A DNA stretch of 64,000 nucleotides, from assembly GCF_007115105.1 (NCBI RefSeq), contig NZ_SULJ01000001.1, forward strand, positions 620,001 through 684,000, read 5' to 3'. Below are positions 8,139-43,150 of this stretch, in pieces (positions within the stretch are counted from its first letter, which is position 1; each line of letters starts with the position of its first letter). The notes under the pieces were generated by a model that saw nothing but the letters and a program-made list of their open reading frames with translations, made no database searches and had not been told where the DNA came from. Both the position numbers and the translations under genes were made by a program. Source of the DNA: Clostridium sp. HBUAS56010. Its GTDB lineage: Bacteria > Bacillota > Clostridia > Lachnospirales > Lachnospiraceae.

Positions 8139-8400
8139 AAAAAAAGTCCCTTTCCATATGCTTCCATACAGAAAGGGACGATTAATCATAATAAATCGCG
8201 GTTCCACCCTAGCTTGAGTGAACAAAAAATGTTCAAACCACTTCATTTGATGATAACGGAATCACCGTTCCCGATTAAGGGACACTCCAAGATGGTCTTC
8301 TCATAACATTCCGGTAAAGCACTTTCACCAAATGTGCTTCTCTCTGGACGTTCCTGTAATGATACTGTTCTTGTCAACGTATTTTCTTATTCTTTTCTAT
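8139..8400 (-). ncRNA. T-box riboswitch of thrS
   Basis: The leader carries the T-box sequence AGGGTGGAACCGCG (minus strand, 8197-8210), followed by a terminator with stem GTCCCTTTC/GAAAGGGAC (8146-8154 / 8171-8179) and a U-tract. Uncharged tRNA-Thr is expected to stabilise the antiterminator. Upstream (8211-8400) are the Stem I/II/III sequences with an AGAGAG K-turn-like tract near 8340. I could not place the specifier firmly; a minus-strand ACC at 8313-8315 is one candidate. This accounts for the gap between thrS and the AEC gene. Confidence 0.92.
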
Positions 8401-27328: not shown

Positions 27329-28225
27329 TTAAAAGGAAGGAACAACTGCACCTTCATAAGTATCCTCAATATATTTTTTAACAGAGTCACTTGTCAGAGC
27401 TTCTACGAGAGCTTTGGTCTTTTCACTTGTATCTTCTCCTGTACGGACTGCAACGATGTTGCTATAAAGGGTGGCTGCCAAAGATTTGGCATCTTCCGTT
27501 GCCAGCGCTTCTGAAACCTTTAATCCTGCTTCAATTGCATAGTTACCATTGATAACTGCAATATCCACATCGCCTAATGAACGGGGAAGCTGTGCAGCTT
27601 CAACTTCAATAATCTTAAAGTTTTTTTCATTTTCTACAATATCGTTCTTGGTTGCATCCAGTTCTACGCCTTCTTTGAGTTCAATTAAACCATTGTCTGC
27701 CAATAACAGAAGGGCTCTTGCCTCATTGGAAACATCATTAGGAACTGCAATCTGTGCGCCATCAGGAAGGTCTTCAAGACTCTTTATCTTACCTGCATAT
27801 ATACCAAACGGCTCATAATGAATGGCAGCGGCGCTGACAAGATCTGTCTTTTTCTCTTCATTGAACTGGTCAAGATATGGTTTGTGCTGAAAATAATTGG
27901 CATCCAGATCTCCGGAATCCAAAGCAAGGTTTGGCTGGACATAATCTGTATATTCCTTTATCACCAGATCATATCCCTTTTCTTTTAACACCTCTTTGGC
28001 TGCCTTTAAAATCTCTGCATGAGGGGCTGGACTTGCACCTACTACGATTTCTTCCAAATCGCCATCTGTTTTGCCTGTTTCACTTATCTTTGCAGTATCC
28101 GCTGCTGTTGAAGCCTCTTCCTTTGTTTCTGCTGCTGTTGTCGGAGCTTCTTTGGGTCCGGAACATGCGGTCAGGGCACCTGCCGCAAGAAGTGCTGCTG
28201 TGAGTACATAAAAAGTCTTTTTCAT
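27329..28225 (-). CDS. metQ: MetQ/NlpA-family methionine-binding lipoprotein
   Basis: 298-aa substrate-binding lipoprotein of a MetNIQ importer. The signal peptide ends in lipobox LTAC with lipidated C21. A Thr/Ala/Glu-rich linker runs to about residue 57, then the NlpA domain with VGASPAPHAEIL, DLDANYFQHKPYLDQF, YEPFGIYAGK and AVINGNYAIEAGL. It delivers methionine or a related compound to MetI. Third gene of the operon; the whole unit lies behind the leader at 29998-30272. Confidence 0.95.
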   Translation of the reverse strand: MKKTFYVLTAALLAAGALTACSGPKEAPTTAAETKEEASTAADTAKISETGKTDGDLEEIVVGASPAPHAEILKAAKEVLKEKGYDLVIKEYTDYVQPNLALDSGDLDANYFQHKPYLDQFNEEKKTDLVSAAAIHYEPFGIYAGKIKSLEDLPDGAQIAVPNDVSNEARALLLLADNGLIELKEGVELDATKNDIVENEKNFKIIEVEAAQLPRSLGDVDIAVINGNYAIEAGLKVSEALATEDAKSLAATLYSNIVAVRTGEDTSEKTKALVEALTSDSVKKYIEDTYEGAVVPSF

Positions 28226-28269: not shown

Positions 28270-28935
28270 CTATCTGATTCGCTTATCACTGATCCTGGAA
28301 AGCTTCATACCTGCCTCCTGAATGATCTGCACAATGATAACAAGGATTGCTACCGTGGCAAACATCATGCCGGTCTGATAACGGTAATATCCATATTTAA
28401 TCGCAATATCTCCCAGTCCGCCGCCGCCTACAAAACCTGACATGGCGGAATAACCGAGAATGGTGGTAACCGACAAGGCTCCTCCGATTAAAAGAGATGG
28501 CTTTGCTTCCGGAAGAAGAACCTTCCAGATAATCTGAAACGTAGAGGCACCCATGGATTTCGCCGCTTCCACCACGCCGGCATCCACTTCTTTAAAAGAA
28601 GATTCCACCACTCTCGCCACATATGGCGCAGAGGCAAATACCAGAGGAGGAATAACTGCCTTGGCACCCAGAGTCGTTCCCACGATCATCTTTGTAATAG
28701 GAATTACCATGATCAACAGAATAATAAAGGGAACAGAGCGGAGCAGATTAATGGCAAGACCAAGGATTCTCTGGAGCAAAGGAAGAGGATAAATGCCATC
28801 CTTATCCGTAACAATCAGTATAATACCAAGAGGAACTCCGATTAAATATGCAAACAAGGAAGAGGTGAACGTCATAAACAGCGTTTCCCATATTCCAAGT
28901 TTGAGCATGTCAAAAACAGACGCATCAAATACCAT
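28270..28935 (-). CDS. metI: Methionine ABC transporter permease
   Basis: 221-aa permease with five to six helices and the EAA loop VDAGVVEAAKSMGASTFQIIWKVLLPEAKPSL that contacts MetN. Length and helix layout are those of MetI. Its ATG lies 11 bases inside the metN 3' end, so translation is coupled. Confidence 0.96.
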   Translation of the reverse strand: MVFDASVFDMLKLGIWETLFMTFTSSLFAYLIGVPLGIILIVTDKDGIYPLPLLQRILGLAINLLRSVPFIILLIMVIPITKMIVGTTLGAKAVIPPLVFASAPYVARVVESSFKEVDAGVVEAAKSMGASTFQIIWKVLLPEAKPSLLIGGALSVTTILGYSAMSGFVGGGGLGDIAIKYGYYRYQTGMMFATVAILVIIVQIIQEAGMKLSRISDKRIR

Positions 28936-29947
28936 AATCTTTCACCTCCTCATGGGTAATCTTTGCTGTTTTTAAGTAATTTAATATCCGGTTCTGATCC
29001 ACTTCATCTTCCGGAAGCTGAATGACCATCTGACCCATGGCAGTTCCGTTAATATCCTTTGTCTCTGCATGAATGATATTTACTGGAACTTTGCATGCAA
29101 GAATCAAATTAGAAACCACCGGTTCAAAGGAAGACCTGCCGTCAAATGTAATTCTGACACGTTTGGAATTCCCGAATTTCACCACATGTTCAGCCGCCTC
29201 ACCCAGGATAAGCTGCCGTCCAATCTTTGATTTTGGTTCTGAAAAAATATCTGCAACACTTCCAACCTCTGCAATATGGCTCTGGTCAATGATCGCCACC
29301 CTGTCGCAAATCGCTTCAATAACAGCCATCTCGTGGGTAATAACAACCACAGTTACCCCGAGAGTCTTATTAATCTCTTTTAAAAGGCTGAGTATGGACT
29401 TTGTGGTATTCGGATCAAGGGCACTAGTTGCTTCATCACAAAGTAATATTTTAGGATTGGTAGCCAATGCCCTTGCGATGGCCACACGCTGCTTCTGACC
29501 TCCGGAGAGTTGGGATGGATACGCCTTAATCCGGTCCTTTAACCCTACCATCTCAAGAAGTTCCATGGCTCTTTTTGTCGCTTCGTTCTTTTGCACCCCG
29601 GCAATTTCAAGAGGAAAACATACATTTTGAAGAACATTTCTCTGTGCCAGTAAATTAAACTGCTGAAAGATCATTCCCATGGACTGTCTGGCAAATCTTC
29701 TCTGGCGCGGTCTCATATCGGATAAACTTTTGTTCTCAAAAAGTACGGTTCCGGAGGTTGGTTCCTCCAGATAGTTAATACAGCGGACCAGCGTGCTTTT
29801 TCCTGCACCGCTGAGGCCTATAATTCCAAAGATTTCTCCCCGTCCGATGGACAGGTTAATATCATCCAATGCCTTGATGGGACCATTTGACGTACGAAAT
29901 TCTTTGCCTAATCCCACCAGTTCTATGATTGGCTCTGCTGACTGCAT
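28925..29947 (-). CDS. metN: Methionine ABC transporter ATP-binding protein
   Basis: 340-aa ATPase. Walker A is GLSGAGKST, the signature LSGGQKQR, Walker B KILLCDEATSALD, and the H-loop VVITHEM. A C-terminal regulatory domain of about 80 residues (from about 265) corresponds to the ACT-like C2 domain by which MetN is inhibited when methionine is abundant. First gene of metNIQ, downstream of a leader with a Met/Cys-rich peptide and a terminator. Confidence 0.96.
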   Translation of the reverse strand: MQSAEPIIELVGLGKEFRTSNGPIKALDDINLSIGRGEIFGIIGLSGAGKSTLVRCINYLEEPTSGTVLFENKSLSDMRPRQRRFARQSMGMIFQQFNLLAQRNVLQNVCFPLEIAGVQKNEATKRAMELLEMVGLKDRIKAYPSQLSGGQKQRVAIARALATNPKILLCDEATSALDPNTTKSILSLLKEINKTLGVTVVVITHEMAVIEAICDRVAIIDQSHIAEVGSVADIFSEPKSKIGRQLILGEAAEHVVKFGNSKRVRITFDGRSSFEPVVSNLILACKVPVNIIHAETKDINGTAMGQMVIQLPEDEVDQNRILNYLKTAKITHEEVKDYGI

Positions 29948-29997: not shown

Positions 29998-30031
29998 AAA
30001 AAAAGCCGCAAGTCCTGCACAGACTTGCGAC
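29998..30031 (-). terminator. Leader terminator (attenuator) before metN
   Basis: Minus-strand stem GTCGCAAGTC/GACTTGCGGC with a 7-nt loop, then seven T. It lies between the leader-peptide stop (30094) and metN (29947), so metNIQ transcription must pass it. An upstream TTCGCAA (about 30056-30062) repeats the left arm and could pair with TTGCGG of the right arm as an alternative structure. Confidence 0.85.
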
Positions 30032-30093
30032 CTGATACTTCCGCCTTTCACTGCCTTTGCGAATTCAATCACAACCCATACAACTCAATATAA

Positions 30094-30186
30094 TTATGGT
30101 TTTTTTGAACAATCTGAAATACAACACCTTTTACACATGTTGTTCAACCGATCCATATTCATCTGCATTGCATAGGATTGATTCAT
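30094..30186 (-). CDS. Met/Cys-rich 30-aa leader peptide of metNIQ
   Basis: A 30-codon frame read from the minus strand begins at ATG 30184-30186, 8 nt after GGAAGGAG, and stops at TAA 30094-30096. The peptide has Met at residues 1, 7, 9, 11 and 17 and Cys at 18, 21, 22 and 26 (segment MCKRCCISDC): nine of thirty residues are sulfur amino acids. It is the first gene after a near-consensus promoter and precedes an intrinsic terminator and then metNIQ. The codons from 30146 down to 30102 lie in a hairpin (TTGAACAA/TTGTTCAA with inner CAACA/TGTTG). This is the layout of an amino-acid attenuator. No match to a described leader is claimed. Confidence 0.7.
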   Translation of the reverse strand: MNQSYAMQMNMDRLNNMCKRCCISDCSKKP

Positions 30187-30243
30187 GGCAGTTACTCCTT
30201 CCCTGATTCCTATAGTAAAGGTAGGGATTACTTTATAAGGCGT

Positions 30244-30272
30244 ATTCTACGCTTCTTATCTGCATTTGTCAA
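30244..30272 (-). promoter_or_regulatory. Promoter of the metNIQ leader
   Basis: Minus strand TTGACA (30267-30272), 17-bp spacer, TAGAAT (30244-30249), about 58 nt before the leader-peptide ATG and about 300 nt before metN. Confidence 0.85.
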
Positions 30273-42906: not shown

Positions 42907-43150
42907 AGAAAAGCCCCTTGCATCATAACATGCAAAGGGCGAATCAACGCGGTACCACCTTTTTTCATGGCAGAAACTGCCATATCTCAGAGCTTTTAAC
43001 GCTGCCATGCGTGAACGCTTACGGGTATACTTTCAGCGTCCCGGTTCCAAAGCTACCTTCCGCACACACTTCCTTAACCGTCTTTCAGCCGATGAACGGT
43101 ACTCTCTTTCAGGGTTATGAACGTACTCCTCTTCTTCTCAACCTTTCTCA
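42907..43150 (-). ncRNA. T-box riboswitch of valS
   Basis: The T-box sequence AAGGTGGTACCGCGTT (minus strand, 42946-42961) is followed by the terminator stem ATGCAAAGGGC (42930-42940) with GCCCCTTGCAT (42913-42923) and a T-rich tail. Upstream are Stem I-III sequences with a GAAAGAGAGTA region near 43105, typical of the K-turn/specifier area. Expected to respond to uncharged tRNA-Val. I could not fix the specifier codon. This fills the gap between valS and the TPR gene. Confidence 0.92.

Follow-up and report, generated by a model that had tools for sequence, protein, structure and literature searches.

The leader and its operon

Within the window, by which we mean the whole 64,000-nucleotide stretch of DNA that was analysed, a leader interval on the minus strand separates a gene for an M20 peptidase (31710-30307) from an operon of three genes (29947-27329). 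By its Pfam domains this operon is metNIQ-like, and methionine is its probable substrate. The features of the leader and the operon, in the direction of transcription, are as follows.

30244..30272, minus strand: promoter-like sequence TTGACA-17-TAGAAT, agreeing with the consensus at 11 of 12 positions
30195..30202, minus strand: Shine-Dalgarno sequence GGAAGGAG, read from the sequence, 8 nt upstream of the ATG at 30186
30094..30186, stop included, minus strand: leader peptide frame MNQSYAMQMNMDRLNNMCKRCCISDCSKKP, 30 codons, which recurs in 24 of 25 genomes of the genus
30158..30170, minus strand: region 1, codons 6-10 (..AUGCAGAUGAA), which holds the putative control Met codons 7 and 9, recognised by helix conservation
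30121..30143, minus strand: hairpin within Met/Cys codons 15-22, with 97.6% of cells paired over 33 aligned rows
30067..30088, minus strand: region 2, UUGAGUUGUAUGGGUUGUGAUU (consensus of the relatives UUCAUUUGUAUGGAUUGUGAUU), a wobble copy of the right arm of the terminator
30057..30063, minus strand: TTCGCAA, the competitor proposed in the first-pass annotation, present here and lacking conservation in relatives
30016..30033, minus strand: region 3, the left arm and loop of the terminator (GGUCGCAAGUCUGUGCA), predicted antiterminator partner of region 2
30003..30033, minus strand: predicted intrinsic terminator stem-loop (3:4), followed by seven U (T) at 30004-29998
28925..29947, minus strand: metN, methionine importer ATPase (Pfam ABC_tran and NIL)
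28270..28935, minus strand: metI, permease (Pfam BPD_transp_1)
27329..28225, minus strand: metQ, substrate-binding lipoprotein (Pfam Lipoprotein_9)

The first-pass annotation of this DNA had described a near-consensus promoter, a 30-codon frame behind a Shine-Dalgarno sequence, a hairpin inside the Met/Cys codons and a terminator with seven U ahead of metNIQ, and all of these elements are found at the locus. The promoter call is weak alone, because the 501-base region has three such sites over its two strands, where 1.3 would be expected by chance; the TTGACA and the TA.AAT hexamer of the -10 region are, in addition, kept in an alignment of 24 leaders from the genus. Purine-rich stretches lie upstream of the frame in the relatives as well. 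The leader of the window folds more stably than shuffled versions of itself (z -4.4, 0 of 200 shuffles).

Elsewhere in the window, positions 1020-1699 harbor a cluster of four tRNA matches of equal score (49.9 bits) and 84 nt each, three on the minus strand and one on the plus strand, which are possibly duplications in an inverted array.

The short frame and its codons

The window peptide carries methionine at positions 1, 7, 9, 11 and 17 and cysteine at 18, 21, 22 and 26. Among the 28 Shine-Dalgarno-preceded ATG frames of 20-60 amino acids in the 64 kb window, it ranks first in its share of Met plus Cys. With five Met, four of them internal, it nevertheless falls below the line of six Met that was used for relatives. 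The consensus drawn from 21 distinct relatives is MNQxxAMQMNMDxMNGMCMMMCCxSECVKNR, and the peptide of the window species is one of its poorest forms: KR replaces MMM, L14 replaces M, and the consensus Met codons 14, 19, 20 and 21 are missing. The window peptide has no match in Pfam, and among the relatives the length ranges from 28 to 45 amino acids, with variable C-termini.

The codons of this frame appear to be kept as codons. Over 44 distinct frames, 366 internal ATGs fall in frame 0 as against 14 and 17 in the other two frames, and frame 0 holds the majority in 44 of the 44; one of the 366 is probably the true start of its frame (L103). Insertions and deletions are multiples of three (-3 in the window, +9 in L052), and among 16 distinct 31-codon frames of the genus pN/pS is 0.49 in frame as compared with 0.96 and 0.79 in the shifted frames. 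The variable sites of the same 16 frames show no third-position excess, their numbers being 12, 14 and 12 of 31 by codon position; Met codons have no synonyms, and the frame is partly constrained by helices too. A structured RNA switch, either a new riboswitch or a protein site, to which the frame is incidental, would account for this missing excess, as well as for the strong folding and for the conserved helices that overlap the frame. The concentration of ATGs in a single frame in every one of the 44, the frame-preserving indels, the lower pN/pS in frame and the recurrence of Met-rich frames despite diverged leader sequence all argue against such a switch, which we regard as very unlikely.

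The first-pass annotation had also proposed that stalling on Met or Cys codons decides read-through. For methionine this is upheld by the in-frame excess and by the stalling model described below, whereas cysteine probably does not stand as an equal signal. TGY triplets number 154 in frame 0, 156 in frame +1, where they are partly created by an ATG preceding T or C, and 37 in the third frame, and late Met/Cys stalls barely shift the model. The control codons are therefore more likely Met 7, 9, 11 and 13/14 than Met and Cys alike; cysteine looks secondary, and in-frame selection for it is not clear.

Distribution of the leader

A search with the leader DNA gave matches in 24 of 25 genomes of the same genus, the sole miss being a genome that is 67% complete, and all 24 leaders encode the peptide. 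Among 397 family genomes, a profile of the 21 distinct peptides had matches in 26 at E <= 0.05 and in 14 at E <= 1.4e-4. These 14 strong matches cover the genus of the window and ten other genera of the family, and metN is the next gene downstream in all of them. Among 13 weaker profile rows, one (L075) precedes a metN of 72% identity and encodes a Met-rich frame. Named records with the leader, at six loci, are Hungatella hathewayi, H. effluvii, Enterocloster alcoholdehydrogenati, [Clostridium] asparagiforme, Clostridium sp. Marseille-P2415 and an uncultured Lachnospiraceae bacterium. Related Lachnospiraceae thus keep the frame and its Met codons, as the check suggested in the first-pass annotation had asked.

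Beyond these genomes the searches yielded less. The profile of alignment A1, taken outside the genus, gave nothing below E 0.016 in 196 genomes of the order. The A5 profile gave four matches in 291 genomes of the class (E 5e-4 to 0.01), the best of them within a 797-aa open frame, and in 250 family genomes it gave two strong matches, both of them A5 rows themselves, with five more at 0.0027-0.0094. At E <= 1, a search with the single peptide matched 54 of 250 genomes, for the most part by chance, with metN at 3 of 29 loci from other genomes. A search for related loci examined 513 stretches and confirmed six, of which three or more come from genomes already in the comparison.

The leader was also approached from metN. 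The MetN of the window finds matches in 165 of the 397 family genomes at E <= 1e-90, and 60 further upstream regions were taken from the better of these matches, none weaker than 1e-118; one partial metN match with a stop (G111) was passed over, and contig ends shorten 5 of the 60 regions. The survey looked upstream of metN for a frame with a Shine-Dalgarno sequence and at least six Met. Such frames were found in 11 of 20, 1 of 20 and 0 of 20 regions, from the best to the weakest metN matches, and in 0 of 60 on the antisense strand, the counts being given by batch of 20 because a split at L111 was chosen after inspection. Among the 25 best metN matches, 24 have a leader frame (23 with at least seven Met, and that of the window with five) and one, L097, has a T-box. 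Of the seven matches that follow, two carry a frame (L107, L111) and five have neither device (L105, L106, L108, L109, L110), so that the 32 best metN matches in the 397 family genomes include 26 leader frames, one T-box with an AUG specifier and five with neither. The divergent frames, MTNTYTLQMNMMSLMCGMAMCGMIFCMEK... among them, remain rich in Met in spite of their different spacing and length.

Of 50 leaders, 49 have a predicted terminator. Met/Cys-rich motifs can bind copper, and the frame might accordingly be thought to encode a functional small protein, for example in metal binding, that stands before metN by chance. Its constant position ahead of metN in all 14 strong matches, the terminator that lies between in 49 of the 50 leaders, the variable length and C-terminus and the absence of a Pfam match for the window peptide speak against such a protein, and we hold it to be extremely improbable.

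Several individual loci are recorded here in their own right. Less regular Met/Cys-rich short frames precede more distant metN genes at L118, L126 and L151, and these may be further, unrelated leader peptides. The metN match of L066 (G222:C1:509459-510469) has one in-frame TAA, with the leader present, and this metN may be broken. At L095:470-641 the interval from the Met-rich leader to metN contains a Clostridiales-1 RNA (RF01699, 121.6 bits), for which L098, a member of the same genus, gave no match.

Competing RNA helices

Pairing was followed in alignment A4, which has 33 rows drawn from the 50 leaders and over which base-pair probabilities were averaged. The alignment excludes as too divergent L063, L066, L075, L095, L098-L104, L107 and L111, together with three exact duplicates and L093, in which the scan finds no terminator and the sequence has a hairpin with a poor U run. 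The pair counts that follow therefore describe the closer relatives only, and they lean towards structure, since the most divergent leaders are missing and the structure comes from the very rows that were counted.

In the ribosome-free state, region 1 (codons 6-10, columns 106-118) pairs with columns 202-215. When a ribosome is modelled at codon 9, columns 208-223 pair instead with columns 300-315, which are the left arm and loop of the terminator. Because columns 208-215 are common to both, helices 1:2 and 2:3 are mutually exclusive, and helix 2:3 is also incompatible with the terminator. Standard pairs fill 95.8% of cells in 1:2, 94.7% in 2:3 (16 pairs) and 94.8% in the terminator, as compared with at most 56% for slid versions of 1:2 and 2:3 and at most 58% when the terminator is included. 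The alternative stems anticipated in the first-pass annotation are, in this form, conserved. Support from covariation is thin: two-sided changes amount to 10 cells at one pair of 1:2, 1 in 2:3 and 8 in the terminator. The change in 1:2 is from C-G to U-A in 10 rows at columns 107/213. Column 213 goes from G to A in 11 rows, where the region-1 side is U in 10 and the region-3 side stays paired with U.

Region 2 (UGUAUGGAUUGUGAUU) resembles the right arm of the terminator and reaches into the loop UGUGCA, and pairing with region 2 would explain the conservation of that loop. The sequence GTATGGATTGTG occurs with at most two substitutions in 38 of the 50 leaders, a count made without a shuffle control. 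The predicted conserved antiterminator is formed by GUAUGGAUUGUGAUU with the left arm and loop of the terminator. It is this sequence, rather than the TTCGCAA of the first-pass annotation, that is the conserved competitor; TTCGCAA was rejected as an antiterminator, many relatives carrying TTCGCTGA or TTCTCTGG in its place. The hairpin in codons 15-22 is possibly a pause hairpin.

Two other candidate pairings are seen in the leaders. A short hairpin, CCUA...UAGG, recurs 5' of the Shine-Dalgarno sequence (window 30207-30227, minus strand; A4 columns 39-59) with a mean pair probability of about 0.55. A helix between the spacer from Shine-Dalgarno to AUG and a segment 3' of region 2 was seen by eye and looks covarying in places.

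Modelled ribosome stalling

In the stalling model the transcript was cut at the terminator loop and a 30-nt ribosome footprint was kept single-stranded, the readout being the probability that the left arm of the terminator is held upstream. The modelled set consists of 49 leaders, many of them close kin. The median probability was 0.41 without a ribosome. It was 0.76 with a ribosome placed on the first three Met codons counted from codon 7 onwards, and stood at 0.46 for late Met/Cys codons and at 0.55 for the stop codon. An early Met stall raised the value by more than 0.1 in 35 of the 49 leaders and lowered it in none, the other 14 being non-responders (change <= 0.1), and the effective stalls lay mostly at codons 7-14. 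A ribosome at the stop codon also raised antitermination by more than 0.1 in 18 of the 49 and lowered it in one, so that termination would depend on prompt release.

The response belongs to the real sequences. The mean change was +0.249 in 43 distinct real leaders and -0.001 in 172 dinucleotide-shuffled upstream sequences, where each real leader is represented by the mean of three stall sites and each shuffle by one site. In direction, 67% of real leaders went up; of the shuffles, 11% went up and 10% down. A stalled state of at least 0.6 was reached by 79% of real leaders and also by 53% of shuffles, and the value without a ribosome was 0.41 in real as against 0.62 in shuffled sequences. As stalled shuffles often reach 0.6 too, the low value without a ribosome, and its release, are the special part.

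The leader of the window itself gives the same 0.08 whether the ribosome is absent, at the stop codon or at any of the Met codons, and rises to 0.45 only with the whole frame blocked. It has therefore to be considered that this species has a decaying attenuator and a mostly constitutive terminator, which would be compatible with an attenuator in the relatives. The loss of four consensus Met codons and the lack of a modelled switch point in this direction; the frame, Shine-Dalgarno sequence, promoter, region 2 and terminator are all intact, however, and equilibrium folding of one sequence, which is what the value of 0.08 comes from, is unreliable. On balance, decay is possible, though we would not expect it. 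The evidence from the family is good, yet the switch may be weakened in the species of the window, because its leader is unresponsive in the model in which the family responds, and the window copy is among the least convincing members.

T-boxes and S-boxes

The first-pass annotation had seen no S-box or T-box motif at this locus and had named a known riboswitch as the finding to set against its reading. The covariance models of the S-box (RF00162) and the T-box (RF00230) give no match at the locus at either the strict or the loose Rfam threshold, and at the loose threshold only four chance-level matches of any kind appear there. The same search detects two T-boxes elsewhere in the window, before genes that we take from their sequences to be thrS and valS.

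8171-8386, minus strand: T-box before the presumed thrS, specifier ACC (Rfam; control for the specifier rule)
42932-43148, minus strand: T-box before the presumed valS, specifier GUA (Rfam; control for the specifier rule)

At the Rfam gathering score, the 60 upstream regions contain two T-boxes before metN, both in the sense orientation, and no S-box, the Rfam runs on leaders covering that of the window and these 60 regions. The two T-boxes precede the metN of L097 (69% identical) and L122 (62%), neither of which has a Met-rich frame. When the specifier is read as GAA-N-XXX-R, it is AUG in both, and the same rule fits the T-boxes of the window before thrS (ACC) and valS (GUA). At these two loci metN thus appears to be under the control of tRNA-Met by another device in kin of the window species. 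The S-box has one match in each of the 25 genomes of the genus, where at most 99 first-look candidates were scored per genome, and the gene after it in the genome of the window is presumably metK.

A probable ribosome-mediated methionine attenuator

We read the leader as a classical ribosome-mediated methionine attenuator that is conserved across part of one family, with a probability of about 0.8. The sequences provide a conserved frame, an in-frame excess of Met, two conserved helices that overlap and a predicted terminator; in the model, the antiterminator is favoured when a ribosome is stalled at the first Met codons. The observation made in the first-pass annotation is confirmed, and its interpretation as an attenuator is supported. 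That the frame is translated, that methionine is the signal and in which direction the system responds are points that we infer.

In the proposed mechanism, transcription would begin at the promoter and a ribosome would start on the short frame. Given plentiful charged elongator tRNA-Met, the ribosome would reach the stop codon and depart, region 1 (codons 6-10) would then pair with region 2, and region 3 would be left free, so that the terminator 3:4 could form ahead of metN. Under methionine shortage, the ribosome would stall at Met codon 7, 9, 11 or 13/14 and cover region 1. Region 2, thereby released, would form the antiterminator with region 3 and the loop of the terminator, and the polymerase would continue into metNIQ.

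The same RNA switch could be worked by nascent-peptide arrest, in which the Met/Cys-rich chain, while in the exit tunnel, would respond to methionine, SAM or a sulfur compound by stalling the ribosome at a fixed site. Residues other than Met are indeed kept, with Q8, N10 and C22 invariant or nearly so in alignments A1 and A3, and with LMCGMxMCGM common to five divergent frames. Q8 and N10, however, lie within the region-1 helix, and G16-M17 and M21-C22 within the second hairpin, so that RNA pairing at least partly explains their conservation, and Met richness persists while spacing, length and C-terminus vary. The stalls that are effective in the model fall mostly at codons 7-14, where the chain is short, but this is a weak objection because short arrest peptides exist. 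Overall, we consider arrest improbable. A two-input switch, in which the chain senses SAM, methionine or thiol state besides charged tRNA-Met, and which would stand where kin carry a Met T-box before metNIQ, is likewise a long shot.

Relation to known systems

The trp, his and leu leaders of Proteobacteria are ribosome-mediated amino-acid attenuators. The proposed attenuator is like them in its codons for the amino acid of the operon, its exclusive 1:2, 2:3 and 3:4 helices and its intrinsic terminator. It differs in that the amino acid is methionine, the operon encodes a transporter and the hosts are found around Hungatella and Enterocloster. The S-box (SAM-I, RF00162) controls methionine genes of Firmicutes by termination, and here the metNIQ leader is unlike those genes in having no RF00162 match.

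The nearest described case is in Streptomyces lividans TK24, where a leader peptide, metL, has been proposed as an attenuator before metNIQ (PMC8079986). It resembles the present leader in being a short, Met- and Cys-containing frame ahead of metNIQ; going by its description, it is unlike in being leaderless, 29 aa long with three Met including the start, and in a different phylum, and its authors found no typical Rho-independent terminator (PMC8079986). A survey of 2005 reports no conserved RNA structure before the methionine operons of Actinobacteria (PMC1262725).

Met-specific T-boxes are described for the met transporter of Lactococcus lactis (PMC7058034) and the met leader of Staphylococcus aureus (PMC3771891). 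They share with the proposed attenuator the sensing of tRNA-Met charging, the control of methionine transport or synthesis and the choice between terminator and antiterminator, but in these the RNA binds the tRNA directly, and that of S. aureus prefers the initiator tRNA (PMC7058034, PMC3771891), whereas a leader peptide would read the elongator. Leader-peptide attenuators of Firmicutes include the histidine leaders predicted before hisS and hisZ in Bacilli (PMC2965389) and the leucine-rich ilv attenuator of S. aureus (PMC5794164), which have the same mechanism in the same phylum with different amino acids and genes. In Streptococcus, a candidate uORF of fthC has been proposed as an indirect reader of methionine status (PMC11109978); it would act through fMet initiation rather than internal Met codons, and its gene is no transporter. 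The main text of two surveys of new RNA motifs does not mention metN (PMC11109978, PMC8632094), and full-text literature searches, with subscription papers mostly outside their reach, gave no Met leader peptide of Firmicutes among the matches listed.

If the reading given here is true, the leader is an anatomically complete methionine attenuator, of which the literature searched gave only a partial case, in hosts such as Hungatella and Enterocloster. Within one family, metN would then stand behind a Met-rich leader in many of the closest kin and behind a Met T-box in two others, while the presumed metK keeps its S-box in the genome of the window. The leader peptide should read elongator tRNA-Met, where the S. 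aureus T-box favours the initiator, and these differing devices would offer a natural comparison of methionine sensing.
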